Positions 7,637 to 37,842 of a stretch of DNA of 64,000 bases are shown here, piece after piece. The stretch spans positions 608,955 through 672,954 of the forward strand of contig NZ_MBFM01000002.1 of NCBI RefSeq assembly GCF_001696715.1, read 5' to 3'. The DNA comes from Thauera phenolivorans (lineage in GTDB: Bacteria > Pseudomonadota > Gammaproteobacteria > Burkholderiales > Rhodocyclaceae). Position 1 is the first letter of the stretch; each line of letters opens with the position of its first letter. A program made the translations under genes and the position numbers. A model generated the notes under the pieces. The model saw only the letters and a program-made list of their open reading frames with translations, ran no database searches and was not told the DNA's origin.

Positions 7637-7686
7637 ATCGGGGCGTGTTCCGCGCAGTTTCGCCTGACCCAATGATCAGCAACAAA

Positions 7687-8793: not shown

Positions 8794-8815
8794 GGCCCGG
8801 TCGGCGCCGCGCGCT

Positions 8816-8831
8816 GGCCGCTTCAGCGGCC
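8816..8831. terminator. Short hairpin between convergent torT-like and reductase genes
   Basis: GGCCGC (8816-8821) and GCGGCC (8826-8831) pair around a TTCA loop in the 43-bp gap between two convergent stops. No T-run follows, so intrinsic termination is only possible. Confidence 0.35.
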
Positions 8832-8836
8832 GCCGC

Positions 8837-21724: not shown

Positions 21725-22428
21725 TCGCCTGTCGCAAGCTGCCCAGGCTGGCCCTGTCCCTCGCGCTGATGGCGCTCCTCGACCTCCCTGTCGCACAGCG
21801 CGCGATCGCCGCCAACGCCGAGCGACAAGGCGGGCAGATCGCCCTCCCGGCGGGCGCCGCCTCCTTCGAACTCGCCGACGAGGTCCGCATTGGCGCTCGC
21901 CCGACGCGCATCCGGCTGTTCCGGGTGGCGCAACCCCTTGGCACGGTGCAAGCCCACTTCCGCGAGGCGCTCGGCACCGCACGGATCGAAACGGAGCACG
22001 AGGGCTGGCGCCTGCTCGCAAGTCAGGACGGCGCCCATCTGATCGGCGTAAGGCTGCGCGCCACCGACCGTCACCACACCGAAGGCAGCGTGGCGGTCAC
22101 CGAGTTCGGCGGCGCACCGTCGCGGCCGCTTGAGATCGTCCTGCCGGCAGCGAGCCGGCTGAGTGGCGACGTCGAGACCACGGACCGAGGTCGCAGCGCG
22201 CGCACGCTGGTGTGGCACAACCGCCACTCGATCGCACTCAACGTCGGCCACCTGCTGCGCCAGCTCAAGCGCCGCGGCTACCGGCCGGAGCGGGAGATCG
22301 CCATCGCTGGCGGGCGCAGCGTCTGGTTCGGCGGCGATGGGCGCGACGCGCTGGCGCTGGTCACCGGACGCGCCGGCGAGACCGTGGTTGTGCTCCAGCT
22401 GGTTCGTTACCGGGGAGAAGCGGGGTGA
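21721..22428 (+). CDS. Exported protein of unknown function in the Tad operon
   Basis: The 235-aa product has a signal peptide (MIACRKLPRLALSLALMALL, cleavage near AIA/AN). No family is recognised. The mature part looks like one alpha/beta domain, with IRLFRVAQPLGTVQAHFREA and GVRLRATDRHHTEGSVAV as the most ordered regions, and a basic segment LLRQLKRRGYRPERE near the C-terminus. The start is the ATG in the ATGA overlap with the TadE-like stop; the next gene starts on a GTGA overlap with this stop. Tight coupling implies a role in pilus biogenesis, perhaps like other locus-specific periplasmic Tad proteins, but this is inference. Confidence 0.6.
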   Translation: MIACRKLPRLALSLALMALLDLPVAQRAIAANAERQGGQIALPAGAASFELADEVRIGARPTRIRLFRVAQPLGTVQAHFREALGTARIETEHEGWRLLASQDGAHLIGVRLRATDRHHTEGSVAVTEFGGAPSRPLEIVLPAASRLSGDVETTDRGRSARTLVWHNRHSIALNVGHLLRQLKRRGYRPEREIAIAGGRSVWFGGDGRDALALVTGRAGETVVVLQLVRYRGEAG

Positions 22429-22637
22429 GCCACGCAGTCCGCGCCCGTACGCACACACCCTCGTCCTCCGCCCGCGAGCGCGCGCAGGCAATCCCCGAGT
22501 ACCTGCTCGCGCTCGCCGTGGTCGTCGGCCTCTTTGGGCTGCCGTTTGGCGGCGAACCGCCCCTGATCGCGCAGTTCGCCGATGCCGTCGGCACTGGCTT
22601 CGCGCGCTTCCTCCACGCTCTTGCCCTGCCGCTATGA
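22425..22637 (+). CDS. 70-aa second Flp-like pilin or pseudopilin
   Basis: This small gene starts with GTG at 22425, overlapping the previous stop (GTGA), with GGGGAG 6-10 bases upstream. The leader is basic (RARTHTPSSSARERA) and is followed by QAIPEYLLALAVVVGLFGLPF. Cleavage after Ala20 would put Glu at +5 and Tyr at +6 as in Flp pilins, but the -1 residue is Ala, not Gly, and a Pro sits at +4. The mature part is only 50 residues. It lies just before rcpC. It may be a minor pilin or a priming subunit, and whether the Ala at -1 is processed is open. Confidence 0.6.
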   Translation: MSHAVRARTHTPSSSARERAQAIPEYLLALAVVVGLFGLPFGGEPPLIAQFADAVGTGFARFLHALALPL

Positions 22638-22644
22638 ATCCGTC

Positions 22645-23541
22645 ATGAAACTAAAGCTCGCCCTGAACCGCAACTGGATCACCCTCGCCGTCGCCGCGCT
22701 GCTCGGACTCGCCGCCGCCTGGCTGGCGATGCGCCATGTCGAACAGCGCGTCGCCGACATCGAACAGCAGGCGCGCCAGCCGATGGCGCAGGCCGTGGTC
22801 GCCCGCGAGACCCTCGCCGCTGGCGCCCGGGTCACCCACGACAACGTCGCGGTGCGCGAGGTGCCGCGCGAATGGCTCCACTCGGCGGCCATCACGCCGG
22901 AGCAGTTCGACCGCGCGGCCGGTGCCGCGCTCGCTTTCCCCGCGCGCGGCGGCGAACCCTTGCTGTGGTCGCAGCTCAAGGGCGAACGGGCCGCGCGTTT
23001 TTCGGCGCGCCTTGCGCCCGGACGGCGCGCGGTCACGGTGCCGGTCGATCAGCTCAGCTCGATCTCCGGCCTGCTCGAACCGGGGGACGTCATCGACCTC
23101 GTGCTCGACGTGGCCAAGGATGGCCGGCGCTTCAGCTTTCCCCTGCTGCAGGAGGTCAGCGTGCTCGCCACCGGCTCCCGCGTCGGCGGTGCCGAGTCCG
23201 GCGAAGCCGATTTCACCACCATCACCCTCGAGCTCGACCCCGACCAGGCGGGCAGGCTTCTCGCCGCCCGCAGCGTGGGCAGCCTGAGCGCCGTGCTGCG
23301 GCCGCCTGGCGACCGACACCATGCGGCGCGTCCGCGCGGCGATGCTTTCGCGCTGCTCGGGCTGGACGATCCGCCATCAGCACCCCCTCCCTCCGTGCCC
23401 GTCATCTACGGCGGCCGAGGCGGACCCATTGCCGAGGGCAATACCCCCCTTTCGCCGGGTCGCTTCGCACAAGCGCTCTCAGAGCTTCTCTCCGACCGCG
23501 CCTCTCCAACCCCTGTCGCTCTGGAGACCGACGAACGATGA
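22645..23541 (+). CDS. cpaB: Flp pilus assembly protein RcpC/CpaB
   Basis: This 298-aa protein has an N-terminal membrane anchor (ITLAVAALLGLAAAWLAM) and then a SAF-type beta-clip domain (AQAVVARETLAAGARVTHDNVAVREVP) and the RcpC/CpaB core (RRAVTVPVDQLSSISGLLEPGDVIDLVL), as in proteins that line the periplasmic side of the Tad secretin. The C-terminal 60 residues are Pro/Gly/Ser-rich and probably disordered. It starts 7 bp after the small pilin-like gene and overlaps the secretin gene by 4 bp. Confidence 0.88.
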   Translation: MKLKLALNRNWITLAVAALLGLAAAWLAMRHVEQRVADIEQQARQPMAQAVVARETLAAGARVTHDNVAVREVPREWLHSAAITPEQFDRAAGAALAFPARGGEPLLWSQLKGERAARFSARLAPGRRAVTVPVDQLSSISGLLEPGDVIDLVLDVAKDGRRFSFPLLQEVSVLATGSRVGGAESGEADFTTITLELDPDQAGRLLAARSVGSLSAVLRPPGDRHHAARPRGDAFALLGLDDPPSAPPPSVPVIYGGRGGPIAEGNTPLSPGRFAQALSELLSDRASPTPVALETDER

Positions 23542-24953
23542 CCCGCCGCAGCCGGGCGCTGATCGCGCTCACCCTTCCCCTCCTGCTCGTCGCTCCCGCC
23601 CTGCCCGCCACCGCGAGCACGACGTCTTCCGGCGTCGTGCCCTTCGACCTCCGCCCCGCCCGCGGCGAGTCCGCCCTCGCAGAAGTGCAGATGTTCGCCG
23701 GCGAAACCCGCGTATTGCCGCAACGCAATGCGGAACGACTGGCTGTCGGCGACGGCAAGGTGCTTTCCGCGGCGGTGCTCGACGAGCGTGAGATCCTGCT
23801 GATCGCCAACGCCGCCGGCGACACCATGCTCCACGTGTGGACGCGCGACGGACGCAGCCAGCGCATGAAGATCACCGTGCGCCAGCACGACATGGGCCGG
23901 CTCGCGCGCGATCTGCATGCCTTTCTCGACAGCATCCCCAACGTGCGCAGCCGCCCCCTCGGCGACCATCTCGTCATCGAAGGCGAGAACATCTCGGACG
24001 CGGACCGCGACAGGATCGCCGAGATCGTCAAGCGCTTTCCCCAGGTCATCGACTTCACCAGCCGCGTCGGCTTCGATCGCATGTTCGCCTTCGATGTCCA
24101 CTTCGTCGAGATCTCGCGCAACGGACTGGAAGACCTCGGCATCGACTGGACCAGCCAGGGCAAACCGCTGCTCGGGCTCGACATCGTCGGCGACCTGTAC
24201 CACGACAACCGGACCGGGGCGGACCTGTCCCGAGTGCTCGAGGACGGCGACGCGCGCACCGAAATCAGCATCGACGGCCAGCGTCTGAGGCCGTTCTCGA
24301 GCCGCTTCAGCCTCGTCGGCTCGCTCGTCGGGCGGCTCAACCTGCTCGCCCAGAAGGGGGATGCGGTGATCCTCGCCCAGCCCCGCCTCGCCGCACGCAA
24401 CCGCGGCACGGCCAACTTCCTCGCCGGCGGCGAGATCCCGATCGCGACCGCCTCGGCCACCGGCACGCCGAACATCGAGTTCAAGGAATATGGCATTCGC
24501 CTCGAGATCATCGAGCCGGTCGCCGACGATTCCGGCACGATCCGCGCGCGCATCAAGACGGAGGTCAGCTCGCTCGACCGCAGCGTCAGCGTGATGGGCG
24601 TTCCCGGCCTGCTCTCGCGCCGCACCGAGACCGAGTTCAACCTGCGCGAGGGCGAGACCCTGGTGCTCTCGGGCGTGATCAACCAGGAGCAGGCGAACGA
24701 TGTCAGCGCCGTCCCCTACCTCGGCCGGATGCCGGTGCTCGGCAGCCTGTTCCGCTCGAAGCGCTTCCAGAACCGCGAGAGTGAGCTCGTCGTCTTCCTC
24801 ACCCCTTGGTCGGTCAAGCCGGGCGAGATCGGCTCCGACCCGCGCGCGACCGCGCTGCGCGAGCGCGCCGAGCGCCGCCTTGCCGCACCGACGCCGCCCG
24901 ATCGCGGCGCCCGGCCCATTCACGACCCTTTCGGGAACATCTACGCGCCCTGA
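23538..24953 (+). CDS. cpaC: Tad outer-membrane secretin RcpA/CpaC
   Basis: This 471-aa protein has a signal peptide (LIALTLPLLLVAPALPATAS), an N-terminal pilus and BON-type region (about 50-180, GETRVLPQRNAERLAVGDGK and the IVKRFPQVIDFTS segment), and a type II/III secretin domain (about 230-430) with the signature VLSGVINQEQANDVSAVPYLGRMPVLGSLF cut by key residues V-P-x-L-G-x-x-P-x-L-G-x-L-F. It forms the outer-membrane channel for the pilus. It is in a 4-bp overlap with cpaB and 19 bp before tadA. No separate pilotin or TadD lipoprotein gene is seen in the locus. Confidence 0.9.
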   Translation: MTRRSRALIALTLPLLLVAPALPATASTTSSGVVPFDLRPARGESALAEVQMFAGETRVLPQRNAERLAVGDGKVLSAAVLDEREILLIANAAGDTMLHVWTRDGRSQRMKITVRQHDMGRLARDLHAFLDSIPNVRSRPLGDHLVIEGENISDADRDRIAEIVKRFPQVIDFTSRVGFDRMFAFDVHFVEISRNGLEDLGIDWTSQGKPLLGLDIVGDLYHDNRTGADLSRVLEDGDARTEISIDGQRLRPFSSRFSLVGSLVGRLNLLAQKGDAVILAQPRLAARNRGTANFLAGGEIPIATASATGTPNIEFKEYGIRLEIIEPVADDSGTIRARIKTEVSSLDRSVSVMGVPGLLSRRTETEFNLREGETLVLSGVINQEQANDVSAVPYLGRMPVLGSLFRSKRFQNRESELVVFLTPWSVKPGEIGSDPRATALRERAERRLAAPTPPDRGARPIHDPFGNIYAP

Positions 24954-24972: not shown

Positions 24973-26253
24973 ATGAGCGACACCACCCTCCCCGACCCCG
25001 CAAAACTGCACTGGCGCCAGCGGGTGCACGAACGCCTGCTCGACACCATCGACCTGCGCCGCCGCGATCTCGGCCGCATGTCGGACGCCGAGCTGCGCCA
25101 CGAGACCGCTGCCCTGATCGCGGAGATTGTCGCCGCCGACCCTGCGATTCCCGCCGCGGTCGACCGTGACCGACTGTGCCGCGAGGTCCTCGACGAGGCG
25201 ATCGGACTCGGTCCGCTCGAGGCCCTGCTCGAGGACGAGCGCATCAGCGAGATCATGGTCAACCGCTTCGACGAGATCTTCGTTGAGCGCGACGGCCGCA
25301 TCGAGCGCCATCCCTGCAGCTTCACCAGCGACCGCGCGGTGCTGGGCGTGATCGAGCGCATCGTCGCACCGATCGGTCGCCGCATCGACGAGAGCTCGCC
25401 GATGGTCGACGCCCGACTGAAGGACGGTTCGCGGGTCAACGCGGTGATCCCACCTCTCGCGCTCAAGGGACCGACGCTGACGATCCGCCGCTTCGCACGC
25501 CGCCACCTGACGATGGCCGACATGCTAGAGCGCGGCACGCTGTCGGCCGCGATGGCGGCGTTCCTGCGCATCTGCGTCGAGGAGCGGCGCAACATCGTCG
25601 TCTCCGGCGGCACAGGCACCGGCAAGACCACCTTCCTCAACCTGCTCTCGGGCCTGATCCCCGAAGGCGAACGCGTCATCACGATCGAGGACGCCGCCGA
25701 GCTTCGCCTCGACCACCACAATCTGGTGTCGCTCGAAGCGCGCCCGAGCAACCTGGAGGGCCGTGGCGCGGTGAGCATCCGCGAGCTCGTGCGCAATGCG
25801 CTCCGGATGCGCCCCGACCGCATCGTGATCGGCGAATGCCGCGGCCCCGAGGCGCTCGACATGCTGCAGGCGATGAACACCGGCCACGAGGGCTCGCTCA
25901 CTACCCTTCACGCCAACAGCCCACGCGACGCCCTCGCCCGCCTCGAAACCCTGGTGCTGATGGCCGGCATGGACCTGCCGCTGAACGCGATCCGGGAACA
26001 GATCGCGAGCGCGATCGACATCATCGTGCAGCAGACCCGCTTCGCCTGCGGCACGCGCCGGGTCACCAGCATCTGCGAGGTCACCGGCCTCGAGGGCGGC
26101 CGCGTCCAGTTGCAGGAGCTGTTCCGCTTCGAGCGCGCAGGCCAGCGCGGAGAGCGCTTCGTCGGCTGCGATGCGGTGCCGAACTTCTACGACGAGCTGC
26201 GCCAGCGCCAGGTCGCGCTCGACTTCACCATCTTCGACCGTCTGCCGGCATGA
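24973..26253 (+). CDS. tadA: Tad secretion ATPase TadA/CpaF
   Basis: This 426-aa cytoplasmic ATPase of the type II/IV secretion family powers Flp pilus assembly. It has an N-terminal domain, the segment LEDERISEIMVNRFDEIFVER, a Walker A motif GGTGTGKTT with Lys218, an Asp box (VITIEDAAELRL), and a Walker B region (RPDRIVIGECRGPEALDML), then the His box TGHEGSLTTLHANSP. Ribosome binding site and spacing indicate translation as part of the operon; it overlaps tadB by 4 bp. No TadZ/CpaE localiser is present next to it, where many Tad loci have one. Confidence 0.94.
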   Translation: MSDTTLPDPAKLHWRQRVHERLLDTIDLRRRDLGRMSDAELRHETAALIAEIVAADPAIPAAVDRDRLCREVLDEAIGLGPLEALLEDERISEIMVNRFDEIFVERDGRIERHPCSFTSDRAVLGVIERIVAPIGRRIDESSPMVDARLKDGSRVNAVIPPLALKGPTLTIRRFARRHLTMADMLERGTLSAAMAAFLRICVEERRNIVVSGGTGTGKTTFLNLLSGLIPEGERVITIEDAAELRLDHHNLVSLEARPSNLEGRGAVSIRELVRNALRMRPDRIVIGECRGPEALDMLQAMNTGHEGSLTTLHANSPRDALARLETLVLMAGMDLPLNAIREQIASAIDIIVQQTRFACGTRRVTSICEVTGLEGGRVQLQELFRFERAGQRGERFVGCDAVPNFYDELRQRQVALDFTIFDRLPA

Positions 26254-27104
26254 GCACCCAACCGCTTCTCGCCGCCGTCGGGGCAGGCCTGGCGGTCGCC
26301 CTGTTGGCATGGGCGATGGCCGCCATCGGCGAAGACGGGCTCACCATCTATCGCGCCCGCTTCACCGCCGAGGCGCGCTTCCGTCTCGGCGAGCTCTTCC
26401 TCTTCTTCGACCCTGCCCGCCTGTTCGCGGCCAACCTCGCGCTCGTCGCCCTCAGCGGGTTGGTCGGCTGGCTCGTGAGCGGGCAGCCCCTGATCGGGCT
26501 CGCGCTGGGCGCCGGCACTGCGCTCGTGCCGGGACTCACCTACCGTCGGCTGCGCGTGCGGCGAATGCGCCTGATCGAAGGCCAGCTGGCCGATGCCCTG
26601 CTGGTGATCGCCGGTGGCTTGCGCGCCGGCGTATCGCTGACCCACGCCCTGCAGCAGCTGGTGCGGGAGGGCAGCCCCCCGCTGGCGCAGGAATTCGACC
26701 TGGTACTGCGCGAGCAGCGGCTCGGCGTCAGCCTCGACGAGGCGCTCGAGCACCTCGCCGGGCGCGTCCCACTATCGTCGCTGACGATGGTAATCGCCGC
26801 CATGCGCATCGCCGGCGAAACCGGCGGCAGCCTCGCCGAGGCGCTCGAGCGCAGCGCCCACACGGTGCGCAGCCAGCTCGCGATGGAGGAGAAGATCCGA
26901 GCCCTGACCGCGCAGGGCAAGCTGCAGGCGATCGTGGTCGGCCTGCTCCCGGCCCTCCTGTTGCTCGTACTCGGCCGCATGGAGCCCGAGGCGATGGCCG
27001 TGATGTGGTCGACGCCGATGGGCTGGGCCACGCTCGGCGTGATCGCAGTGCTCGAAGCCTGCGGCGTCATGCTGATCCTTCGCATCGTGGCGATCGACGT
27101 ATGA
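26250..27104 (+). CDS. tadB: Tad inner-membrane platform protein TadB
   Basis: This 284-aa membrane protein contains a GspF/TadB domain (about 110-240: QLADALLVIAGGLRAGVSL and AMRIAGETGGSLAEALERS), with transmembrane segments at about 5-28, 62-85, 225-245 and 260-283. TadB pairs with TadC as the inner-membrane platform that couples the TadA motor to pilin insertion. The ATG overlaps the tadA stop and its own stop overlaps tadC, as in most Tad operons. Confidence 0.9.
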   Translation: MSTQPLLAAVGAGLAVALLAWAMAAIGEDGLTIYRARFTAEARFRLGELFLFFDPARLFAANLALVALSGLVGWLVSGQPLIGLALGAGTALVPGLTYRRLRVRRMRLIEGQLADALLVIAGGLRAGVSLTHALQQLVREGSPPLAQEFDLVLREQRLGVSLDEALEHLAGRVPLSSLTMVIAAMRIAGETGGSLAEALERSAHTVRSQLAMEEKIRALTAQGKLQAIVVGLLPALLLLVLGRMEPEAMAVMWSTPMGWATLGVIAVLEACGVMLILRIVAIDV

Positions 27105-27979
27105 GCGCCGTCCTCGCCCTCAGCGCCCTAGCCATCGGCCTGTGCGTCGCCCTCGTCGCGCTCGTGGTCGCGCGCGCAATCGCCGCGATCCCGCCCGAGG
27201 ACCGCAGCTGGCTCGACCGCCCGCCCGCGTTCGTGCACTGGCTGTGGTGGCCGACACGCTGGATCGCCCACCTTGGCGGGGCGCGGCTGCCCGCGCGCCT
27301 GCAGCAGCGCACGCTCGCCCGCTTGCGCATCGCCGGGCTCGACTACGTGATGACGCCGTCCCAGCTGCTCGCCCATCGTGTCGCGGCAGCGCTCACGCTC
27401 GGCCTGGTCGGCGCGACCGCGGCGGCGAACCTGCCCGGGCACGGCGTATCGATCGGTTTTGTCATCGGTGGCGCAGCTGGCCTCCTCCTGGCGCTCTCGT
27501 GGTTCAACGATCGCGTGCAGCGCCAGCGCAGCCTGCTTCTCAAGACGCTGCCCTTCTTCCTCGACCTGGTCACGCTCTGCGTGGAGGCCGGACTGAACCT
27601 CACCGGCGCCTTTCAGCAGGCGGTCGCCAAGGGTCCGGCCGGTCCGCTGCGCGACGGCCTGCAGCGCGTATTGCGCGACATCCGTGCCGGCAAGTCGCGC
27701 GCCGACGCCTTGCGCGAACTCGCCGAGCGGCTCGACGAGCCGGCGATCGGGTATCTGGTGTCGGCGATCATCCAGGCCGAGAGCATGGGCATGAGCCTCG
27801 GTCCAGTGCTGCGGGCGCAGGCCGAACAGCGCCGGATGGAGCGCTTCGCGCTCGCCGAGAAGAAAGCGATGGAAGCGCCGGTGAAGCTTCTGCTGCCGCT
27901 GATCGCCTTCATCTTCCCTTGCACCTTCCTCGTGCTCGGCTTCCCGATCGCGCTCAAGTTCATGGAGATGGGGCTGTGA
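27101..27979 (+). CDS. tadC: Tad inner-membrane platform protein TadC
   Basis: This 292-aa protein has the GspF/TadC domain (LPFFLDLVTLCVEAGLNLTG and IQAESMGMSLGPVLRAQAEQ) and transmembrane segments at about 5-28, 90-130 and 260-285. It forms the platform with TadB. It overlaps tadB by 4 bp and is followed one base later by the DUF192 gene. Sequence features are ordinary for the family. Confidence 0.9.
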   Translation: MSAVLALSALAIGLCVALVALVVARAIAAIPPEDRSWLDRPPAFVHWLWWPTRWIAHLGGARLPARLQQRTLARLRIAGLDYVMTPSQLLAHRVAAALTLGLVGATAAANLPGHGVSIGFVIGGAAGLLLALSWFNDRVQRQRSLLLKTLPFFLDLVTLCVEAGLNLTGAFQQAVAKGPAGPLRDGLQRVLRDIRAGKSRADALRELAERLDEPAIGYLVSAIIQAESMGMSLGPVLRAQAEQRRMERFALAEKKAMEAPVKLLLPLIAFIFPCTFLVLGFPIALKFMEMGL

Positions 27980-27980
27980 G

Positions 27981-28337
27981 ATGCAGAGTCTGAGGATGTG
28001 TCGCCCCGACCGCGACTACAGGGTCCGCATCGCTACCGGATTTTTCGCACGCACCCGCGGCCTGCTCGCCACCCGCACGCTGGCGCCGGGGCACGGCCTG
28101 CTGCTGTTGCCGTGCAATGCGGTGCACAGCCTCGGCATGGTCTATCCGATCGACCTCGCCTTCATCAGCCCGGATGGCGTCGTCCTATCCACCCGCAGCG
28201 CATTCCGCCCGTGGCGCGCGATGCGCTGCGCCGGCGCGCGCGCGGTGCTCGAGTTGCCGGCCGGCAGCCTGGCCAGCGCGCGCATCTTCCGCGGCGAGCG
28301 CCTCGACGAGCTCGTCGCAGCGATGAGTGCCCGATGA
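27981..28337 (+). CDS. DUF192 family protein
   Basis: This 118-aa protein matches the DUF192 family (UPF0127), a small beta-barrel of unknown function. Conserved features are FFARTRGLLATRTLAPGHGL, PCNAVHSLGMVYPIDLAFI and RAVLELPAG. Unlike most members, which carry a signal peptide, this copy has none. It is embedded between tadC and a TadE-like gene; DUF192 genes are seen in several Tad-type loci, so a pilus-linked role is plausible but undefined. Confidence 0.75.
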   Translation: MQSLRMCRPDRDYRVRIATGFFARTRGLLATRTLAPGHGLLLLPCNAVHSLGMVYPIDLAFISPDGVVLSTRSAFRPWRAMRCAGARAVLELPAGSLASARIFRGERLDELVAAMSAR

Positions 28338-29257
28338 CGCCCCGCACGCTCGATGCCATCGTCCGGCGCGACCACCAGCATGGCGCTGGCCTCGTCGGCT
28401 TCGTCGTCGTCGCCCCCACCCTGCTCGCGCTGACGATGGCGATCCTGCAGACCGGGCTCGCCTTCCACGCCAAGAGCAGCCTGAACTACGCGGGCTTCGA
28501 GGCCGCCCGCGCCGGCAGCCTGGCCCATGCCGACCCCACGCGCATCCGGCTCGCCTTCACGCGCGCGATGACCGCCTACTACGGCGGCGGCCGCAACGCC
28601 GGGGAACTCGCCGCGGCGGCCCGCCGGGCCCACGACGACCTCGCGGGCGCCGTGCGCATCGAGATCCTGTCACCGAGCAAGGAGAGCTTCGACGACTTCC
28701 ACAGTCCCGCGGCGGCGCACCGTCTGGGGACCGCCGAACGCGTCATTCCCAGTGCAGCCCTCGCCCATCGGCGCTGTCCGCCCGACCGCCCCGGCTGTGC
28801 CGCGGACCCCGCACACAACCGCTCGGCCCAGACCCTGGCCGACGCCAACCTGCTCAAGCTTCGCCTCACCTGGGGCATCCCGCGCGCGAAACAGATGCCC
28901 CTCGCAGGGCGCTTCTTCACCTGGGCGCTGCGCACCCTCGATGCGGACGATCGCGACGCGTTTCGCAGCCGCCTGCTCGCTGCCGGGCGTATTCCGCTGG
29001 TTTCCCACGTGACCGTGCGCATGCAATCCGACGCGATCGAGAGCGGCGCGATCGTTCCCCGCCCGGTCTCGGGCGGCGGCGACACGCCGATCGCGCCGGG
29101 CACACCGGCGCCACCCGAGCCGCTTCCCCCCTGCGGCAGCCTCGATCCCCTTTGCACCGAGCCCAAGCCGCCCTCGCCTCCGATCGTGGAGCCCGTTCAA
29201 GGCGGTGACGCACCCACGCCCCCTTCCGACGACAGCGGAGACCTTCCATGCCCATGA
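28334..29257 (+). CDS. TadE-like protein lacking the +5 Glu, Pro-rich C-terminus
   Basis: This 307-aa protein begins with a TadE-like leader and helix (DHQHGAGLVGFVVVAPTLLA). If cut after Gly, position +5 is Gly instead of the usual Glu, so methylation and assembly may differ. A soluble domain with Cys pairs (CPPDRPGC) follows, and the last 60 residues are Pro-rich (APPEPLPPCGSLDPLC, PPSPPIVEP), probably an extended spacer. It overlaps the DUF192 gene by 4 bp and the Rhs gene by 10 bp, making it the direct link between the pilus genes and the Rhs toxin candidate. It could act as an adaptor for that protein. Confidence 0.65.
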   Translation: MTPRTLDAIVRRDHQHGAGLVGFVVVAPTLLALTMAILQTGLAFHAKSSLNYAGFEAARAGSLAHADPTRIRLAFTRAMTAYYGGGRNAGELAAAARRAHDDLAGAVRIEILSPSKESFDDFHSPAAAHRLGTAERVIPSAALAHRRCPPDRPGCAADPAHNRSAQTLADANLLKLRLTWGIPRAKQMPLAGRFFTWALRTLDADDRDAFRSRLLAAGRIPLVSHVTVRMQSDAIESGAIVPRPVSGGGDTPIAPGTPAPPEPLPPCGSLDPLCTEPKPPSPPIVEPVQGGDAPTPPSDDSGDLPCP

Positions 29258-32200
29258 TCTGCCTCGGCCCCTGCCGCCGCCCGGGACGCGCACTGCGGCG
29301 GATCGTCGCGGTGGCGACACTGTTCGCGCAGTCCCTGCTGCCGACGCACGCCGGGTTCTTTGACGGCGAGTCCACCTCGCCCGCCAACGACGGCGGCTCG
29401 ATTCTCGACCCGGCGATCGGTTCCGCGCCTTCCGCCCCTGCCGTATGCCGGCCGAGCGCCGGCGGCGCCACGTGCGACGGAGCCGGTCCGGCCAGTCAGG
29501 AGGGCGGCGCCGGCGGCGCGCTAGACGTCGGCGCGGGCAATCCGATCGATGTCCTCAACGGCAACAAGTACCAGCGTGAAACCGACCTCGCGCCCTTGCC
29601 GGGCGTGCTCGGCCTGGAAATCGTGCGCCACTACAACAGCGCCTACGCCGACAGCGGCCGCGCCAGTGGGCTCTTCGGCCGCGGCTGGCGGCTCAGCTAC
29701 GAGACCACGCTGCATGTGATCCGCGACACGCTTCAGATCGTGCAGGCCGATGGACGCGGCCTGATCTTCAGGCGCGAACCGGACAGCGGCACGCGCTGCG
29801 CGAGCACCGATCCCGCCGATGGCTACATCGAGACCCGCACCGCGGACGATGGTACGCATTACGTCTGGCACTGGACCCACGGCGCGGGCGCCGGGCGCGC
29901 GCTCGGTTTCGACGCCGACGGCCGCCTGATCCAGATCCTCGCGCCTAGCGGGGAATTCGTCAGCCTTCACTACGCGCCCGACGGCAGCCTGCTGCGGATC
30001 GTCGACCCGCAGGAGCGCGAGCTGCGCTTCCGCTACGCCCGCACCCCGGGCCAGGGTGCGGGCCGCCAGGTATCGCAGATCGATTCGCCGGCCGGCAGCT
30101 TCCACTATCGCTATGCGGACGCCACGCCTGCCACGCCGGGCGGCAGACCGGAGCCGCTACTGACGCAGGTGGAGCGGGAGGTCGCTGCCGGCAGGGTCGG
30201 GCGCGAGTACCACTACGAAGACGCGCGTCACCCACGCCACCTCACCGGCATCACCGCCACCACGACCGCGCGAGACGGCAGCCGCGTCGCGCGGCGAGAG
30301 AACACCTGGCGGTACGACGAGGAGGGTCGCGGCGTGTTCTCGATGCGTGGCGAACCGAGCGAGTCCGAGGACCCGGAGACGGTCCGGCTCGTGTTCGAGC
30401 GCGCGGCGAAGGACGGCGCCAGGGGCATCACCATCGTCACCGATGGCACAGGAGGAACGCTCCGCCACATCCATGGGTTGGTCGGTCGCCAGCGGAGGTT
30501 GCTCGAGACCCTTGCCCGACCCTGCCACGACTGTGCGGAGCTCGCCATCCGCCACCGCTACGATGAGCATGGTCGCCTGATCGAATCCCACCGCGTCGAT
30601 CCCGCGCACGAACGGGTCGTGGAGACGAGGCGCTTCAGCTTCGACACGCGCGGTCGCCTGGAGCGCATCGACCTCTCCACCGCGGGGGCCGCGGGCGAGC
30701 GGAAATCGCATTTTCTCCGCTACGAGTACGAGGGCGAGCTCACCCGACCGACATTGCTCGCCCGACCCAGCGTCGTCCCCGGCCGGGAGCATCGACTCGC
30801 GCTGCGTTACAACATGCACGGCCAGCCGGTCGAGCTTCTCGAGACCGGCTACAGCCCGGTCGATGCCGAGGGCCGACCCGTCCCGGGGGGCGTGCCGCTG
30901 GAACGGACGACTCGCTACACCTACCGGCAGGCCCGCGGCCGCAGCCTGCTGCAGGCCTTCGACGGCCCGCTGCCGAACGGCCCTGCCTCGACCCCCGCGG
31001 ACAGCGACATCACCTTCCTCACCCACGACGAGGCCGGCAACCATCTCCTCGCACTGAACCGTCCGATGGCGCTGCTCGAACGACTGCAGCGCGACGCGCT
31101 CGGGCGCATCGTCGCCGCCACCCCCGCCGACGGCGTGCCCATCCGGCTGAGCCTGGACGAGGACGGTCGCCCGCTGCGATGGCAGCGCGGCGATGCGATC
31201 CTCGAGATCGCACGCGACGGCTTCGGTCGCCCGCTGCGGATCACGCTGCCCGACGGCGAAGTGCGCTGGTTCGGGCACGACGGTCGACAAGGCCTCGCCG
31301 CCATGGTGTCCAGCCGCGGCCACGGCCTGTGGCTCCAGGACGGCCACTCGCGGCCGATGGCCCCCCTGCCGCAGCCGGCGGTCGGGCAGGCTGCCAGCGC
31401 TCGTACGCCTCCACCCGCGACATCGGCCGCTATCAGCGACTGGGCGGGTCTGGCGCATTGGCGCGACGATTTCGGCCTCCTGCGCGCCAGGCGGACCGAT
31501 GCGACCGGACTGGAAACCTTCGACTACGACGCCGCCGGACGCCTGATCGAGCGACGCTTCGCTGACGGCGGCGTCTGGCGCTGGCAGCGCGACGCGGCCG
31601 GGCGCATCGTCGCCCATTCGGTCAGCCGACCGGGGAGCCCGGGCGCGGTCACCCGGCTTCACTACGAAGGGCCGCATCTCGTGCGCATCGCTCATCCGCA
31701 TGAGACCGAAACACGAATTCATGACCCCCTCGGGCGGATCGCCACCCGCCGCATCGCACGCGCCGGGCAATACGGTCGCCCCGATCTCGGTGCTTTCGAG
31801 TACGTCGAGCGCTTTCGCTACGACGAAGCCGACCGGGTCCTCGCGCACGAACTGCCCGAGGGCGGCACGCTCCACTATCGCTGGGGCTCCGGGCGCCAGT
31901 TACGGGGGATCGACTGGGTCGATCCGCTCCGTCGCAGGACACCTCTGATACGGTCCGCCAGCCCGGCGGACGCGCTGCGCGCCGAAGCCCCAGGACTGCC
32001 GGTATCGGGCGGCTACCGCTTCGGCAATGGCGTCGAGGCCAGATGGACGATCGGGGCAGACGGTCGACTGTCTGCGCTTCAGCATCATGTCATCGCCCCC
32101 CCCGCCCAACAGCCACTTTTGTCTTGGCTACGTGTGGCCCACGCCGCGGAAGCCGGCCTGGCAGGTCTGATCGAGCGCTGGGCCTACCGCTATGATCCCA

Positions 32201-34170
32201 CCGGACAAATGGTCGCGCGCGAGGATGCACTGCGGCACAGGCACAGCCGTTTCGGCTTCGACCTGGGCGGGCGGTTCATCGCCGCCGAACATGCGGAACA
32301 AGGCGCCACACCCCAAGCGGAGTACTACGCCTACGATCGGCTCGGGGACACGCTCGGTCGGCGGATCGACGGTCGCACGGACGACTTCCACCGAACACTT
32401 CTCGAGCGCGACGCAGGCGGGCTGCCCAGCCGGATCGGCGACTACGAACTCGCCTATGGCGCCGACCGCCGCCCGGTCGAGATTCGCGATCGCAGCGGCA
32501 TCGCCGGCGCGAGCAGCCCTGCACCCGCGTTGCTCGCCCGCTACCGCCACAACGCCCACGGGCTGCGGATCCAGAAGGAGGTCTTCCCGCGCAAGACTGC
32601 CGACGGTCTCGCAGCCGAAGACACCCACTTCCTCTGGCAGGGCCACCAGCTTGTCGGCGAAGCGCGCGGCGGGCGCGGCGCGGCGCGCCTGATGCGTCGC
32701 TATGTCTATGCGCACGGTACGCCCGTGGCGCTGCTCGACTACCCGAGCGGACGCCGTCTGCAGGAACGCGGCCGGCTTGCGCGCATCCTCTCGATCGGCT
32801 GGAACGAGCTCCTCGGTCGCGGCACCCGCATCCGCTACATCCACGCCAACGAGATCGGCACGCCGACCGCGGTGACCGACGATCGGGCGCGCGTGATTTG
32901 GCGCGCCGATCATTCGGTCTACGGCGAGGCTCGCCCGGTTGTCGGCCGCACCGAACCGACGACGAGGCGACCGTTCGTGCTCAACCTGCGTCTGCCCGGC
33001 CAATATTTCGACGCGGAAACCGGCTGGCACGACAACGTCCTGCGCACCTACGACCCCCGCCGCGGCCAGTACCTCGAGCCCGACCCGCTGGGACCGCATC
33101 GGCTCACCACCCCCTTCGCCTACGCTGCGCACAACCCGCTGACGCACGCCGACCCACTCGGCCTGATCCTGTTTGCGTTCGACGGGACGGGGAATGAGGA
33201 GATACCGGGGAAGCCGGTGTCGAATGTGGTGAATTTTCGCGAGCTTTATGATGACGGTCGGACCTACTACATCACCGGTCCGGGCACTGTCGACCCCGGC
33301 ACGGGAATCCACAATGCCGTCTACAAGGGCGGCAACCCTCTTGACATGGCGTTCTCGTTCACGGGAAAGGAACGCGTCGCAGCGATGGTCGACTATCTCG
33401 ACCGCCACGCCGACGGGGTGGAGGACGAGCTTGCGTTCGACATCGACATCATCGGCTTCAGCCGCGGAGCGGCACAGGCGCGCGATTTCGCCAACCAGGT
33501 CGCCGCCAGCTACCGGGACGGCTACTACCGGTACGCAAGCGACCATCAGTTCCGGTGCCAGCGCGTCAATCTGCGCTTCATCGGGCTGTGGGACACGGTC
33601 CTGAGCGTGCACGTCGGCTCATACGACCTCCGCATCCCAGACGAATTCGCCCATGTGGCCCATGCGGTCGCGCTCAATGAATACCGGCGCCTGTTCCCGC
33701 TGGAATCCATCTCAGGCATGGACACGCCGGACGGCAAGACGAGGATCGAGCGCGGCTTTCTGGGCTCGCATTCGGATATCGGCGGCAGTTTCGAAGAGGG
33801 CGATCTCGCCAAGGTCGCACTGGCCTGGATGGTAAAGGAGGCGGAGAGCGTCAATGTCAAGATGGATGTGGATGCTCTTGATCGCAGTGTCAGTCCCCAG
33901 CCCGTAATGCATGACAAAAGCAGCAACCTCTTCGCCGAAGAGGGCCCGGCGCCCAACGAGCATTCCGAAGACCGCGAAGTCCGTTATCAGAATGGCAGCC
34001 TCGCCCTGCAGCGCGAGGCCCACATCGACGGCATGCGCCACGCGGACACCACCGCCTTTATCCGCTATGACGACTGGCCGGTGCAAAATGTCTCCGGCAG
34101 CGTGGACATGGAAGCCTATCTCGCCTGGCTGGCGGCGAACGACTACGACATCGAGATGATCCTGCAATGA
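29248..34170 (+). CDS. Secreted Rhs-repeat protein with C-terminal DUF2235/Tle1-like lipase domain
   Basis: This 1640-aa protein has a Sec-type signal peptide (RIVAVATLFAQSLLPTHA then GFFDG). A DUF6531-like start (NPIDVLNGNKYQRETDL) leads into a long YD-repeat Rhs shell (about 110-1290), closed by the Rhs core motif with DPLGL at 1302-1306. After it comes a variable tip (about 1308-1640) of the DUF2235/Tle1 alpha/beta-hydrolase type: FAFDGTGNEE, nucleophile Ser1405 in IIGFSRGAAQ, RFIGLWDTV, and GSHSDIGGSFEEGD with the likely His/Asp. Such tips are phospholipase toxins of interbacterial systems. Its start lies inside the TadE-like gene and a lipoprotein gene overlaps its stop. No VgrG, PAAR or Hcp is nearby. 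Delivery by Tad secretin is an inference. Confidence 0.85.
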   Translation: MPMICLGPCRRPGRALRRIVAVATLFAQSLLPTHAGFFDGESTSPANDGGSILDPAIGSAPSAPAVCRPSAGGATCDGAGPASQEGGAGGALDVGAGNPIDVLNGNKYQRETDLAPLPGVLGLEIVRHYNSAYADSGRASGLFGRGWRLSYETTLHVIRDTLQIVQADGRGLIFRREPDSGTRCASTDPADGYIETRTADDGTHYVWHWTHGAGAGRALGFDADGRLIQILAPSGEFVSLHYAPDGSLLRIVDPQERELRFRYARTPGQGAGRQVSQIDSPAGSFHYRYADATPATPGGRPEPLLTQVEREVAAGRVGREYHYEDARHPRHLTGITATTTARDGSRVARRENTWRYDEEGRGVFSMRGEPSESEDPETVRLVFERAAKDGARGITIVTDGTGGTLRHIHGLVGRQRRLLETLARPCHDCAELAIRHRYDEHGRLIESHRVDPAHERVVETRRFSFDTRGRLERIDLSTAGAAGERKSHFLRYEYEGELTRPTLLARPSVVPGREHRLALRYNMHGQPVELLETGYSPVDAEGRPVPGGVPLERTTRYTYRQARGRSLLQAFDGPLPNGPASTPADSDITFLTHDEAGNHLLALNRPMALLERLQRDALGRIVAATPADGVPIRLSLDEDGRPLRWQRGDAILEIARDGFGRPLRITLPDGEVRWFGHDGRQGLAAMVSSRGHGLWLQDGHSRPMAPLPQPAVGQAASARTPPPATSAAISDWAGLAHWRDDFGLLRARRTDATGLETFDYDAAGRLIERRFADGGVWRWQRDAAGRIVAHSVSRPGSPGAVTRLHYEGPHLVRIAHPHETETRIHDPLGRIATRRIARAGQYGRPDLGAFEYVERFRYDEADRVLAHELPEGGTLHYRWGSGRQLRGIDWVDPLRRRTPLIRSASPADALRAEAPGLPVSGGYRFGNGVEARWTIGADGRLSALQHHVIAPPAQQPLLSWLRVAHAAEAGLAGLIERWAYRYDPTGQMVAREDALRHRHSRFGFDLGGRFIAAEHAEQGATPQAEYYAYDRLGDTLGRRIDGRTDDFHRTLLERDAGGLPSRIGDYELAYGADRRPVEIRDRSGIAGASSPAPALLARYRHNAHGLRIQKEVFPRKTADGLAAEDTHFLWQGHQLVGEARGGRGAARLMRRYVYAHGTPVALLDYPSGRRLQERGRLARILSIGWNELLGRGTRIRYIHANEIGTPTAVTDDRARVIWRADHSVYGEARPVVGRTEPTTRRPFVLNLRLPGQYFDAETGWHDNVLRTYDPRRGQYLEPDPLGPHRLTTPFAYAAHNPLTHADPLGLILFAFDGTGNEEIPGKPVSNVVNFRELYDDGRTYYITGPGTVDPGTGIHNAVYKGGNPLDMAFSFTGKERVAAMVDYLDRHADGVEDELAFDIDIIGFSRGAAQARDFANQVAASYRDGYYRYASDHQFRCQRVNLRFIGLWDTVLSVHVGSYDLRIPDEFAHVAHAVALNEYRRLFPLESISGMDTPDGKTRIERGFLGSHSDIGGSFEEGDLAKVALAWMVKEAESVNVKMDVDALDRSVSPQPVMHDKSSNLFAEEGPAPNEHSEDREVRYQNGSLALQREAHIDGMRHADTTAFIRYDDWPVQNVSGSVDMEAYLAWLAANDYDIEMILQ

Positions 34171-34181
34171 GGAGAGGACGA

Positions 34182-34715
34182 ATGAACAAACGCGACTTCT
34201 TGACGCTGGCGCTCGGCCTGCCCGCACTCACCGCCTGCGCGAGTTACGCCAAACCAAGGACCGACCGCGATCTTCGCGGCTGGGGCTTCATCGTTTACCA
34301 CGAGCTCGCGCCGGGTGCACAGGACAAATACGGCGTCAAGGGAACAACCGACACGGGCAAATCGATCTTCGGCAACGCGCGATTGAACGAACGCAACTCC
34401 GCAGTCAGCGCCTACGGCGGCAGCCGCTATCAGTCCTTCCCCAAATGGGTCCGGGTCACCTGGCGCGAAGGGGATTTCGTGCTCGACATGCGGGGCGGCT
34501 GGAAAGGCGGCACCATCGTCGGCGACTACACCGTCCCCGTCCTCGAACGCATCCCCGAAGAGCTCTTCACCTACGTGCGTGCCCAGCGTGGCCGCGCGAT
34601 CCGTCTCAAGTTTCGCATCCATGACGACGGCGTACTGTTCGGCTGGGACGTGGAGGATCACGGCAAGGACTTCAAGGGCCCGCTACGCAACGTGATGGCC
34701 GGTGGCGACTGGTGA
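34182..34715 (+). CDS. Lipoprotein, candidate immunity protein for the lipase-tipped Rhs protein
   Basis: This 177-aa protein has a lipoprotein signal: basic MNKRDF, hydrophobic LTLALGLP, lipobox LTAC with Cys19. It starts 11 bp after the Rhs stop with GAGGAGAGGA upstream, the position of an immunity gene. The mature protein is beta-rich; the segment FPKWVRVTWREG followed by IPEELFTYVRAQRG resembles the DUF2931-type lipoproteins that accompany Tle lipases, but I cannot confirm family membership. Lipase immunity proteins typically sit in the periplasm, matching a lipoprotein. Its maturation would need an N-acyltransferase, and an Lnt-like protein is in the same operon. Confidence 0.6.
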   Translation: MNKRDFLTLALGLPALTACASYAKPRTDRDLRGWGFIVYHELAPGAQDKYGVKGTTDTGKSIFGNARLNERNSAVSAYGGSRYQSFPKWVRVTWREGDFVLDMRGGWKGGTIVGDYTVPVLERIPEELFTYVRAQRGRAIRLKFRIHDDGVLFGWDVEDHGKDFKGPLRNVMAGGDW

Positions 34716-34723
34716 GGCACGGA

Positions 34724-35559
34724 TGGGACCTCCGAATGCTGCACCATCCTTCCCCGCCGCCGCGCTGTGGCTTTTCGCACTGTTGCCCTCACGCAGGCTG
34801 ATGTCCGCGTTCAGCCTTGCGGCAATGGCCGTCTGCTCATCCTCAATGGCGACGGCAAGCCCGACGGCGCCCGCAAGACTCTACATCGGCTACTACGTCG
34901 AGGACGCTGCGAACAATCCTGAGGATCCCACCGTCGGCGGCGTGCTTCTCAAAGTTCCTCCGCACGGCGGGCGCTTTTCCGGCCTGATGCCGTTCAGCTT
35001 TATCGGCTGCGAGGCGGGGATGGACATCGGCACGGTCGGCGGAACACGCGTCGGCACGGACCTTCGTGGCGAATGGAAGGGCAAGGTCGACGGGGCTGCC
35101 GTCGGCGGTCGTTTCGGTGGTCGGTACGATGCCGGGACCGATCGCATCTCCGGCGACTTCGACAACACTGCGGGCAAGACCGAAGTCAGCGCCGGTGATT
35201 GCCACTACTTCGTCGCCGCCCACGGCAGCTACACGCTATTCGGTTCCACCGGAAACGTCCCACCCGCCTTCACCGCCGCCGTGAGCAAGGGCACACGACC
35301 GCGGATCTCCTGGCCGGCACTGGGTCGCGAAGTGTATTACCGGGTGCAGGTCTTCGACGAGGATTGCGTTCTCGCCGACACCGCGGATGCGTCCTGCTTC
35401 AAGGGCGAGGCGCTCACCGAGCGCGAGCACGCGGACTTTCCGCTGTCGCGCCCGCTCGCGCGCCCCGGACCGTACCTGATCCTGCTCACCGCCATCGATG
35501 GCGGCACCGGCCGGATGGCGGGCTTTTCAGCACTCCGGGCCGTGCTGTCGCCGAACTGA
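34724..35559 (+). CDS. Exported beta-rich protein after the Rhs/lipoprotein pair
   Basis: No family is recognised. The frame is open from 34702; the best start is ATG 34801 (MSAFSLAAMAVCSSSMATASPTA), a signal-peptide-like start, though the upstream ATG at 34723 also leads into a hydrophobic stretch. The mature part is Gly-rich and beta-like, with paired Cys residues (FIGCEAGMDIG and SAGDCHYFVAAHG; EDCVLADTADASCFKG) that may form disulfides. Its C-terminal half, beginning RPRISWPALGREVYYRVQVFDEDC, looks like a fibronectin-III-type strand pattern. It is likely the last gene of the operon. It might be a second immunity or a surface protein; the role is unknown. Confidence 0.55.
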
Positions 35560-35914
35560 GCGCAGCCGTGCCCGGGATGACGACGTCAGCCCAAGGATCA
35601 GCGCTTGGCGCGCTTGCGCGCCGCGACGAGGCCGAGCGCACCGATGCCGAGCAGCGCCAGCACGCCGGGCTCGGGCACGGGATTCACCGAGGCGGCGTCG
35701 CCCACATTCTCGATGGGGCCGTCGCCTGCGGTGTCGCCCACGCTCTCGCGCGCGCCGGCAAGGATCGGCAGGCCGGCCGCATCCTCGTAGGCCCATTCGC
35801 GCACGCTCAGCCCGTCCGACGAGATCGCCACGTCGACCCAGCCATAGCGGACTTCCTGTTTGGCATCGGTGAAGGAGAAGCCCAGGTAGCCGGTGGGCTT
35901 GGACGCCCACTCCC

Positions 35915-37842
35915 CCGGGGTTCGACACTTCCCCCCGATTTTCGCCCCTTTTCGGAAAGTGCCTCCAACGCCGGCGCGGGTTTGAAGGCCGCGACCGCAA
36001 AAGTGCTGTGGTGGCACGTTTGTAACAGCCACCCTCAAGCTTGACGGCGCTTCTTAGGTGGTTAAAGTGGCGGCAACATGCACGTCAAGCTCACCACCTC
36101 CGGAGGCCGCCGCTACGTCCAACTCGTCGAGTCCTATCGCGACGAGGCGGGACGGGTGAAGAAGCGCACCGTCGCCACGCTCGGCCGCGCCGAGCAGGTC
36201 GATGGTGCGCTCGACGCGGTGATCAACGGCCTGCTCAAGATCACCGGCCGCGAGCCGATGGCCGCCAAACCGCCGGCGCCGACGGTGTCGTTCGAGTCCG
36301 CGCGGGCGCTCGGTAACGTGTGGGCGCTGACCGAGCTGTGGAAGTCGCTGGGTTTCTCGGAGCTGCGGCGGGTATTTCGCCGCACGCGCCGCACCACGGA
36401 CGTGGAAGCGCTGATTCGGCTGATGGTGCTCAACCGCCTGTGCGACCCCGAATCCAAACTCGGCGTGTTGCGCTGGGTGCAGACGGTGGCGCTGCCCGAC
36501 TTCGGACCGAAGGCGGTCACCCACCAGCAGTTGCTGCGCAGCCTCGATGCGCTGATGGATCATCAGGACGAGGTCGATGCCGTGGTCGCCGGGCTGCTGC
36601 GACCGCTGATCGACCAGGATCTGTCGGTGGTCTTCTACGACCTCACCACGATCCGCAGCGAAGGGCTCAGCCAGCAGGCCGGTGACGTGCGCCAGTACGG
36701 CATGGCCAAGGAGGGGCTGATCGCCCGCCAGTTCATGCTCGGCGTGGTGCAGACCGCCGAGGGGCTGCCGATCTACCACGAGGTGTTCGACGGCAACACG
36801 GCTGAGACGCGCACTCTGCTGCCCACGCTCACCAAGGTGCTCGAGCGCTTCCCGTCGGTGCAGCGCCTGGTGCTGGTGGCCGACCGGGGACTGCTCAGCC
36901 TGGATAACCTCGAGGCGCTGAAGGCCGTGCGCTTGGCCAGCGGCAAGCCGCTCGAATTCATCGTCGCCGTGCCCGGTCGGCGCTACAACGAGTTCATCGA
37001 GCTGCTCGAACCCTTCCACGAAGCGCAGTGCGCTGGCGCCACGCAGGAGGTCATCTCGGAGCACGCCTGGAACGATCTGCGGCTGGTGGTCGCGCACGAC
37101 CCGGTAACAGCGGCTGCCAAGACCGGGCAGCGCAACGAGCGCATCGACGCGCTGATCCGCCAGGCGGACCAATGGTCGGGCAAGCTCACCGAGCAGGACG
37201 AAGGCGTGAAGCACCGGGGGCGCAAGCTCTCGGATAGCGGCGCCAAGGCGCGCTTCTACCACGCGGTCAGCGAAGCGCACCTGTCGCGCATCCTCAAGGT
37301 GGATCTGGGTGAGGAACTCTTCAGCTACCACATCGACGACAAGGCGAAGCGTCTTGCCGAAATGATGGACGGCAAGCTGCTGCTGGTCACCAACGCCGAG
37401 GGCCTCGCCGCGCAGAACGTGATTCAGCGCTACAAATCGCTCGCCGACATCGAGCGCGGTTTCAAGGTGCTCAAGTCCGAGATCGAGATCGGCCCGGTGT
37501 ATCACCGCCTGCCCGAGCGGATTCGCGCGCATGCGTCGATCTGCTTCATGGCGCTGATCCTGCACCGGGTGATGCGCAGCCGCCTCAAGGCCGCCGACGC
37601 GGGCTACACGCCCGAGCGGGCGCTCGAGCAGTTGCAGCGTATCCAGCATCACCGCGTGCGCCTGAACGGCGGCGAGCCCATGGCGGGGGTGTCGACGATC
37701 AGCACGGAACAGAACGAGGTGCTTCATGCGTTAGGAATAGAAAGACCGGCGGCGCCGGAGCAGTTGGCGCTGTTGTAGTGGCATTTTTGAAAGTGCGCTC
37801 TAACAAAAACAAATACTTGCGCGCGTAACTGTCGAACTCGGG
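35915..37842 (+). mobile_element. IS1634-family insertion sequence, 1928 bp
   Basis: The left end CCGGGGTTCGACACTTCC (35915-35932) and the reverse complement of the right end CCCGAGTTCGACAGTTAC (37825-37842) match at 14 of 18 positions. The element is flanked by ACTCCC direct repeats at 35909-35914 and 37843-37848, a 6-bp target duplication. One transposase gene is carried. The interrupted host gene becomes in-frame when the element and one repeat are removed, which fixes the ends. Confidence 0.85.
36078..37778 (+). CDS. IS1634-family transposase
   Basis: This 566-aa DDE transposase looks intact. The N-terminus MHVKLTTSGGRRYVQLVES and the motif EAGRVKKRTVATLGR are typical of the family. The DDE-domain landmarks include SVVFYDLTTIRSEG, RLVLVADRGLLS, and the C-terminal Y-(2)-R-(3)-E-like region RYKSLADIERGFKVLKSE. 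It fills most of the element. The element may still be active, since ends and transposase appear complete. Confidence 0.88.
   Translation: MHVKLTTSGGRRYVQLVESYRDEAGRVKKRTVATLGRAEQVDGALDAVINGLLKITGREPMAAKPPAPTVSFESARALGNVWALTELWKSLGFSELRRVFRRTRRTTDVEALIRLMVLNRLCDPESKLGVLRWVQTVALPDFGPKAVTHQQLLRSLDALMDHQDEVDAVVAGLLRPLIDQDLSVVFYDLTTIRSEGLSQQAGDVRQYGMAKEGLIARQFMLGVVQTAEGLPIYHEVFDGNTAETRTLLPTLTKVLERFPSVQRLVLVADRGLLSLDNLEALKAVRLASGKPLEFIVAVPGRRYNEFIELLEPFHEAQCAGATQEVISEHAWNDLRLVVAHDPVTAAAKTGQRNERIDALIRQADQWSGKLTEQDEGVKHRGRKLSDSGAKARFYHAVSEAHLSRILKVDLGEELFSYHIDDKAKRLAEMMDGKLLLVTNAEGLAAQNVIQRYKSLADIERGFKVLKSEIEIGPVYHRLPERIRAHASICFMALILHRVMRSRLKAADAGYTPERALEQLQRIQHHRVRLNGGEPMAGVSTISTEQNEVLHALGIERPAAPEQLALL

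Follow-up and report, generated by a model that had tools for sequence, protein, structure and literature searches.

Tle1-type lipase tips and Rhs cages are classic cargo of the type VI secretion system, whose Rhs toxins and Tle1 phospholipases combine an Rhs core, DPLG motifs and a Tle1-type catalytic domain with a neighboring immunity gene, all of which recur in the locus described below. Contact-dependent killing of prey by the Kil apparatus of Myxococcus xanthus, in turn, needs a Tad-like pilus and is tied to minor pilins that bear additional domains at the C-terminus, with the delivered cargo left unidentified in the portions of the reports covered here (PMC8460266, PMC12075869). The same genus encodes Rhs4/5, which, in the part of the account available to us (PMC10433427), are large, carry a signal sequence and are delivered independently of type VI secretion. 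Candidate antibacterial secretion loci have also been found beside Tad genes, namely T7SSg and T7SSh (PMC11217815, consulted in part). Here we analyze a 64,000-nucleotide stretch of Thauera phenolivorans (contig NZ_MBFM01000002.1; hereinafter the window), in which a Tad operon closes with the gene of a TadE-type minor pilin, TadE2, and that of a lipase-tipped Rhs protein, the two genes overlapping. We consider it likely that the two belong to a polymorphic-toxin system with the Tad minor pilin, and the pilus, as its vehicle, the parts being encoded by separate genes here and by fused genes elsewhere.

The Rhs gene (29248–34170, + strand) codes for 1640 amino acids and overlaps the TadE2 gene (28334–29257, +) by 10 bp; a further in-frame ATG, at position 29254, forms an ATGA overlap with the TadE2 stop codon. 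TadE2 matches the TadE family (PF07811) at 36.8 bits, the cut-off being 22.9, and its AlphaFold model is confident across most of residues 18–242 and low from about residue 245, where a disordered Pro/Cys tail begins; a fold search with it gave no match at E ≤ 0.001. The Rhs protein opens with a segment that, judged by eye, resembles a Sec signal, followed by a Cys-bearing linker, a DUF6531 domain (residues 97–174), RHS repeats, an RHS match (1195–1230) and the Rhs-associated core (1243–1306). It thereby shows the features of Rhs polymorphic toxins, i.e., the RHS/YD core, the Rhs-associated core and DPxG motifs, the last as DPLG at residues 1279 and 1302, ahead of the tip. The tip itself (residues 1307–1640; 33166–34167, +) displays the features of Tle1 effectors, namely a PF09994 (Tle1-like) domain at 81.2 bits and the GFSRG nucleophile motif, with Ser1405 in GFSRGAA and His1508 and Asp1510 in SHSDIGG. 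Eleven base pairs past the Rhs stop begins a lipoprotein gene (34182–34715, +) with the lipobox LTAC, the end of which is overlapped by an exported-looking open reading frame (34702–35559, +), the last of the run. The gene positions, both Pfam matches and the motifs agree with the initial annotation, which had described a signal-bearing, lipase-tipped Rhs protein starting inside a TadE gene with a lipoprotein gene and an exported product behind it. A separate promoter or terminator that might isolate the Rhs gene, which that annotation had named as a possible objection, is not seen on the + strand between 27900 and 36100: the sole promoter-like site in this interval lies at 36041, and all four of its terminator-like sites, a number close to the chance expectation, fall on the − strand. 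As a separate observation, a CxxC motif, often in the form GxGCxxCG, is present in 53 of the 54 Rhs cores measured, falling at residues 426–429 in the window protein.

Evidence for coupling comes from natural fusions. In the sample drawn from the class (369 genomes), a profile of the Rhs N-terminal region matches 77 genomes and a TadE2 profile 39, and all seven Rhs matches of at least 150 bits adjoin or share a frame with TadE2. Five of these seven (G260, G279, G308, G432 and G574) carry both profiles in a single open frame, and the other two, the window genome (G000) and G499, have them as neighboring separate genes; no weaker Rhs match adjoins TadE2 among the matches listed, as read by eye. 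A sixth fusion (locus L130, genome G184) belongs to the window's own family. Each fusion runs from a pilin through a linker some 100 residues long to an Rhs core, with a tip at the end of those that are complete. In four of them (L130, L145, L146 and L152) Pfam places TadE and RHS on a single polypeptide, the remaining two (L148 and L155) being cut by contig ends. One fusion, L146, stands behind CpaB, CpaC, CpaF, TadB, TadC and DUF192 genes, and L130 behind CpaF, TadB, TadC and DUF192, while a CpaF-like ATPase is encoded elsewhere in the genomes of L145, L152, L147, L148 and L155 (at 55–69% identity for the class-level fusions). The fusion in L145 bears a lipase tip with a match to the window's lipoprotein family downstream. 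The 48 Rhs proteins whose genes adjoin or lie near TadE2 have a strongly hydrophobic N-terminal segment, with a best 12-residue mean of 1.87–2.92 on a hydropathy window, which is a simpler measure than a signal-peptide predictor. By the same measure the linkers of five of the six fusions reach at most 0.90; the weakest case is L130 at 1.65, for which 170 residues were taken as the linker end could not be located. With pilin, linker, Rhs cage and toxin in one polypeptide, a separate signal peptide would be unneeded. The initial annotation had offered riding on the pilus as one of two options, and the fusions favor it beyond what was then proposed.

A comparable architecture, with a different cargo, is seen in L137 (8311–10500), where a TadE pilin is followed by a pretoxin-HINT (PT-HINT) domain and a further C-terminal domain, again behind a Tad operon. 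Separately, in L164 a TadE2-like gene is immediately followed by the gene for a 1352-residue TIG-domain protein (5405–9460), which may be a further type of pilus cargo.

The link between the separate genes is conserved. We examined 75 loci in named genomes, from 63 assemblies (several loci can come from one assembly), which remain from the 80 top-ranked among 228 confirmed relatives and are thus biased toward close ones. TadE2 lies directly upstream of Rhs in 46 of them, defined as a TadE2 stop at most 600 bp from the VRHYNS-type motif and counting two loci in which TadE2 is a fragment (L054) or truncated (L115); in three more it is nearby, another Rhs gene intervening in L059. The 46 pairs come from Thauera, Azoarcus, Thiobacillus, Massilia, Duganella, Aquabacterium, Hydrogenophaga and Solimonas. 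Among the 46, CpaB, CpaC, CpaF, TadB and TadC are all present in 31, and TadC with DUF192 in 35. Counted by assembly, TadE2 occurs in 56 of the 63 (45 with an adjacent pair, three near, eight elsewhere). In the family sample of 199 genomes, 68 match Rhs and 24 match TadE2; 13 reach 200 bits for Rhs, the window's own included, and 13 reach 100 bits for TadE2, these two strong sets sharing 11 genomes (Fisher 1.6e-14, ancestry ignored). In eight of the family genomes a Tad operon closes with TadE2 and Rhs in direct succession, namely the window's, G174, G143, G193, G139, G009, G103 (of the same genus) and G179 (with a weak TadE2 match); three others (G115, G119 and G006) have both genes apart or on separate contigs. 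In G037 the contig ends at TadE2, and G153 (80% complete) has TadE2 without an Rhs match in this sample. These genome searches score only the first candidates per genome (two for Rhs and up to 11 for TadE2 in the family, six in the class-level profile searches, five in the phylum-level TadE2 search), such that copies can be missed. At the level of the phylum, 95 of 398 genomes match TadE2, and among the eight in each of which one strong locus was read, L159 has Rhs behind TadE2, L157 breaks off at the start of Rhs and six are without Rhs. The survey proposed at the outset thus returned a recurrent Rhs–TadE pairing, and a chance neighborhood is rejected on the strength of the 46 loci and the fusions.

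The pilin itself differs according to this context. The tails of TadE2 proteins adjoining or near Rhs have a median length of 88.5 and a minimum of 55 (n = 48), versus a median of 15.5 for TadE2-like proteins without an adjacent Rhs (16 measured of 19; p = 2e-4). Long tails are found in six of these 16: three have an Rhs gene elsewhere in the genome, one is the HINT fusion and the other two are from G153 and G482. In three loci (L094, L110 and L120) the TadE2 next to Rhs has an OmpA domain as its C-terminal tail. Another peculiarity is that the Cys count is odd (1, 3, 5, 7 or 9) in all 48 tails adjoining or near Rhs, as if pairs plus one free thiol were kept. The Cys number of the mature TadE2 is odd in 46 of 46 measured, and that of the Rhs N-terminus is even in 45 of 48. 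Docking of TadE2 and Rhs through a disulfide was considered and rejected as a mechanism: the Rhs cores are mixed (35 odd, 19 even) and the linkers of the six Rhs fusions are odd too, leaving the pattern as an oddity only.

At the other end of the Rhs protein, the tips vary on a conserved core. The 75 loci hold 55 complete Rhs proteins, 30 with lipase tips and 25 with others, the latter matching DUF6765, VanY (barely above the cut-off), VWA7_N/Het-C-like domains (below the cut-offs) or nothing. There are at least five unlike tip groups, the finer ones judged by eye together with Pfam, and some tips look like PD-(D/E)XK nucleases, without Pfam support. Members of the window's lipoprotein family occur within 2.5 kb of 22 of the 30 lipase tips versus none of the 25 others, and in tandem in several loci; tblastn adds two further cases, in L097 and L107. 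As this family tracks the lipase tips and not the others, the lipoprotein is a probable immunity protein specific to the lipase tip, the role suggested for it at the outset. Comparison with known families and folds gave no assignment: the window member has no Pfam match, no PDB structure matches its fold at E ≤ 0.001, and among 20 family members Pfam returned just two families, with one member each, at E-values of 0.24 and 0.35. The exported-looking protein behind it has no Pfam or NCBIfam match, and a PADLOC run on three proteins gave no match. The window genome (3.69 Mb, 14 contigs) has no second match to the Rhs protein, and in a plasmid collection 1202 records match Rhs, none of them covering 80% of the query.

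Building on the gene link, the fusions, the tip variation and the tip-specific lipoprotein, we propose the following course of events. The Rhs protein would be made from the Tad operon and cross the inner membrane by Sec, after which the Rhs cage would fold in the periplasm around its C-terminal toxin. Where unfused, the cage would dock on TadE2, the minor pilin with the long flexible tail, which would put it on the pilus, most likely at the tip. The pilus would then pass out through the CpaC secretin and present the toxin to a neighboring bacterial cell, where the Tle1-type phospholipase tip would act on target membranes in a contact-dependent manner, and the lipoprotein would shield the producer's own envelope. 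The parts of this proposal differ in strength. Physical coupling of the Rhs toxin to the minor pilin is highly likely; an antibacterial role for the toxin is quite probable; and an exit through the Tad secretin is probable, Tad delivery being a reading of the fusions and the operon.

Several observations weigh against this proposal. TadE2 is absent from 26 of the 75 loci (eight of these with less than 3 kb upstream) and from seven of the 63 assemblies with Rhs. Eight of the 46 TadE2–Rhs loci show none of CpaB, CpaC, CpaF, TadB and TadC, some with ample room upstream, and no Tad machinery is seen in the 15–20 kb read for two of the fusions (L145, L152) and for the TadE2–Rhs pair in L147. Conversely, TadE2-like genes also occur without Rhs. 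The family genome G033 has Rhs and a close CpaF (69% identity) with no TadE2 match. Of 22 genomes searched, most of them with Rhs away from TadE2, 13 match TadE2, and a profile search repeated on eight of the other nine (all but G198) found nothing above 32 bits. Five of the seven TadE2-less assemblies have a CpaF-like ATPase at 46–53% identity; in G210 the best CpaF match is 156 bits at 36% identity, and the isolate Delftia sp. PS-11 (G217) lacks TadE2 as well as a close CpaF, its best CpaF match scoring 38 bits. At least one relative thus lives without a recognizable Tad machine. In light of the TadE2-less assemblies and the CpaF results from these two genomes, some relatives are orphans or not Tad-borne, and the one genome without a close Tad ATPase slightly lowers our overall estimate. 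Finally, the window TadE2 lacks the conserved pilin Glu5, with Gly at residue 22 (28397–28399; LVGF, against LVEF in relatives). We take the tip pseudopilin GspK to be likewise devoid of the pilin Glu.

The TadE2-less loci and the Delftia genome would be accommodated if the Rhs protein left the cell by Sec followed by type II secretion, or were simply anchored at the surface, with the Tad operon as a mere transcriptional neighbor co-expressed on surfaces. A type II secretin is above the cut-off in 18 of the 22 genomes, the window's included, a further point against the pilus-borne proposal, and the portion of a 2012 survey of trafficking modes that we consulted lists a type II/Sec route and counts RHS repeats among the toxins that use it (PMC3482391). 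However, the fusions place the toxin on the pilin itself, and in G193, G009, G174 and G279, where Rhs is Tad-linked or fused, no type II secretin exceeds the cut-off, so this route is not general to the system; we regard it as unlikely. The Rhs-lipase might instead be a pilus-tip adhesin or a surface hydrolase acting on host, biofilm or nutrient lipids, given that the tip is a putative toxin and that, in the part of PMC12075869 consulted, a different type IV pilus has minor-pilin tips that act as adhesins; yet the exchange of tips, including a VanY-like peptidase and DUF6765, on one core and a lipoprotein family, in tandem in several loci, that follows the lipase tip as immunity genes do make this quite improbable. 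An effector of a type VI system encoded elsewhere in the genome, for which speak TssB in seven of the 22 genomes and the type VI members among the solved Rhs relatives, is rejected for the window genome and extremely improbable overall, since TssB (PF05591) has no match in its 3.69 Mb or in a total of 15 of the 22 genomes, and the Rhs protein, which starts with a signal-like segment, gives no Pfam PAAR match.

The operon behind which the pair stands is part of a + strand gene run that extends from 18004 to at least 34715 and includes CpaB, CpaC, CpaF, TadB and TadC, which belong to the machinery of a Tad (type IVc) pilus. It is headed by a second paralog of the apolipoprotein N-acyltransferase Lnt (18004–19557; TIGR00546, 223 bits), followed by a TadG-like minor pilin (19554–20957; PF13400 at 20.4 bits, below the 22.3 cut-off, with similar genes in the Tad loci of relatives) and TadE1, the first TadE-like gene (20954–21724), which has homologs at the same position in relatives and no Pfam TadE match of its own. 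Two short open reading frames (21721–22637) separate TadE1 from CpaB, one of them Flp-like and without a Pfam match (22422–22637). Then come CpaB/RcpC (22645–23541; PF16976, 77.8 bits), the CpaC secretin (23538–24953; PF00263, 128.8 bits), the CpaF/TadA ATPase (24973–26253; PF00437, 214 bits), the platform proteins TadB (26250–27104; PF00482, 81.7 bits) and TadC (27101–27979; PF00482, 59.5 bits), and a DUF192 protein (27981–28337; PF02643, 57.6 bits) that overlaps the start of TadE2. The genome's stronger Lnt (314.6 bits) lies away from the Tad genes; a second Lnt is also present in G174 and G143, next to an additional Rhs gene, a divergent one, that lies ahead of the Tad operon, while G103, G139, G193 and G009 have a single Lnt each above the cut-off. 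Beyond the run (35598–37778), a minus-strand open reading frame, with an ending that we take to be PEP-CTERM-like, abuts a transposase-like frame (36078–37778, assigned by eye) and may have been interrupted by an insertion.

The individual parts of this system are known; what appears to be undescribed, within the literature searched, is an Rhs toxin coupled to a Tad minor pilin, in some cases through natural fusion. No link between an Rhs or other polymorphic toxin and a Tad minor pilin is described in the titles and abstract starts covered, bioRxiv preprints and most subscription papers lying outside this search, and the examined text portion of the 2012 survey (PMC3482391) does not contain the words TadE, pilin or pilus. 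T7SSg and T7SSh differ in being Gram-positive and without a TadE–toxin link, their colocation with Tad genes being left open by the authors in the part of the report covered (PMC11217815). The Myxococcus Rhs4/5 are likely cell-surface proteins, with delivery to neighbors proposed by analogy to contact-dependent inhibition (CDI) and no Tad link in the portion available (PMC10433427). Type VI Rhs toxins differ from the proteins described here, which start with a Sec-like signal or a TadE pilin, and the window genome gave no TssB match. Kil, which depends on a Tad machine, acts with a needleless type III secretion system and has tip genes reported as restricted to Myxococcota, and its accounts, as far as covered, name no killing effector, the term Rhs being absent from both main texts (PMC8460266, PMC12075869). 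A pilin-fused toxin would bear in one molecule on both the cargo of Kil and the route of large signal-peptide Rhs toxins, and the system occurs in common soil and wastewater Betaproteobacteria; if true, it would offer an extra and testable delivery route for polymorphic toxins. We lean toward the broader view that such toxins have a general means of delivery in the TadE-type minor pilins, with Rhs docked or fused and pretoxin-HINT fused. This would make for a Tad-pilus-borne class of interbacterial weapons that is distinct from the type VI, CDI and type VII systems, and would supply Tad pili with killing effectors that can be identified.
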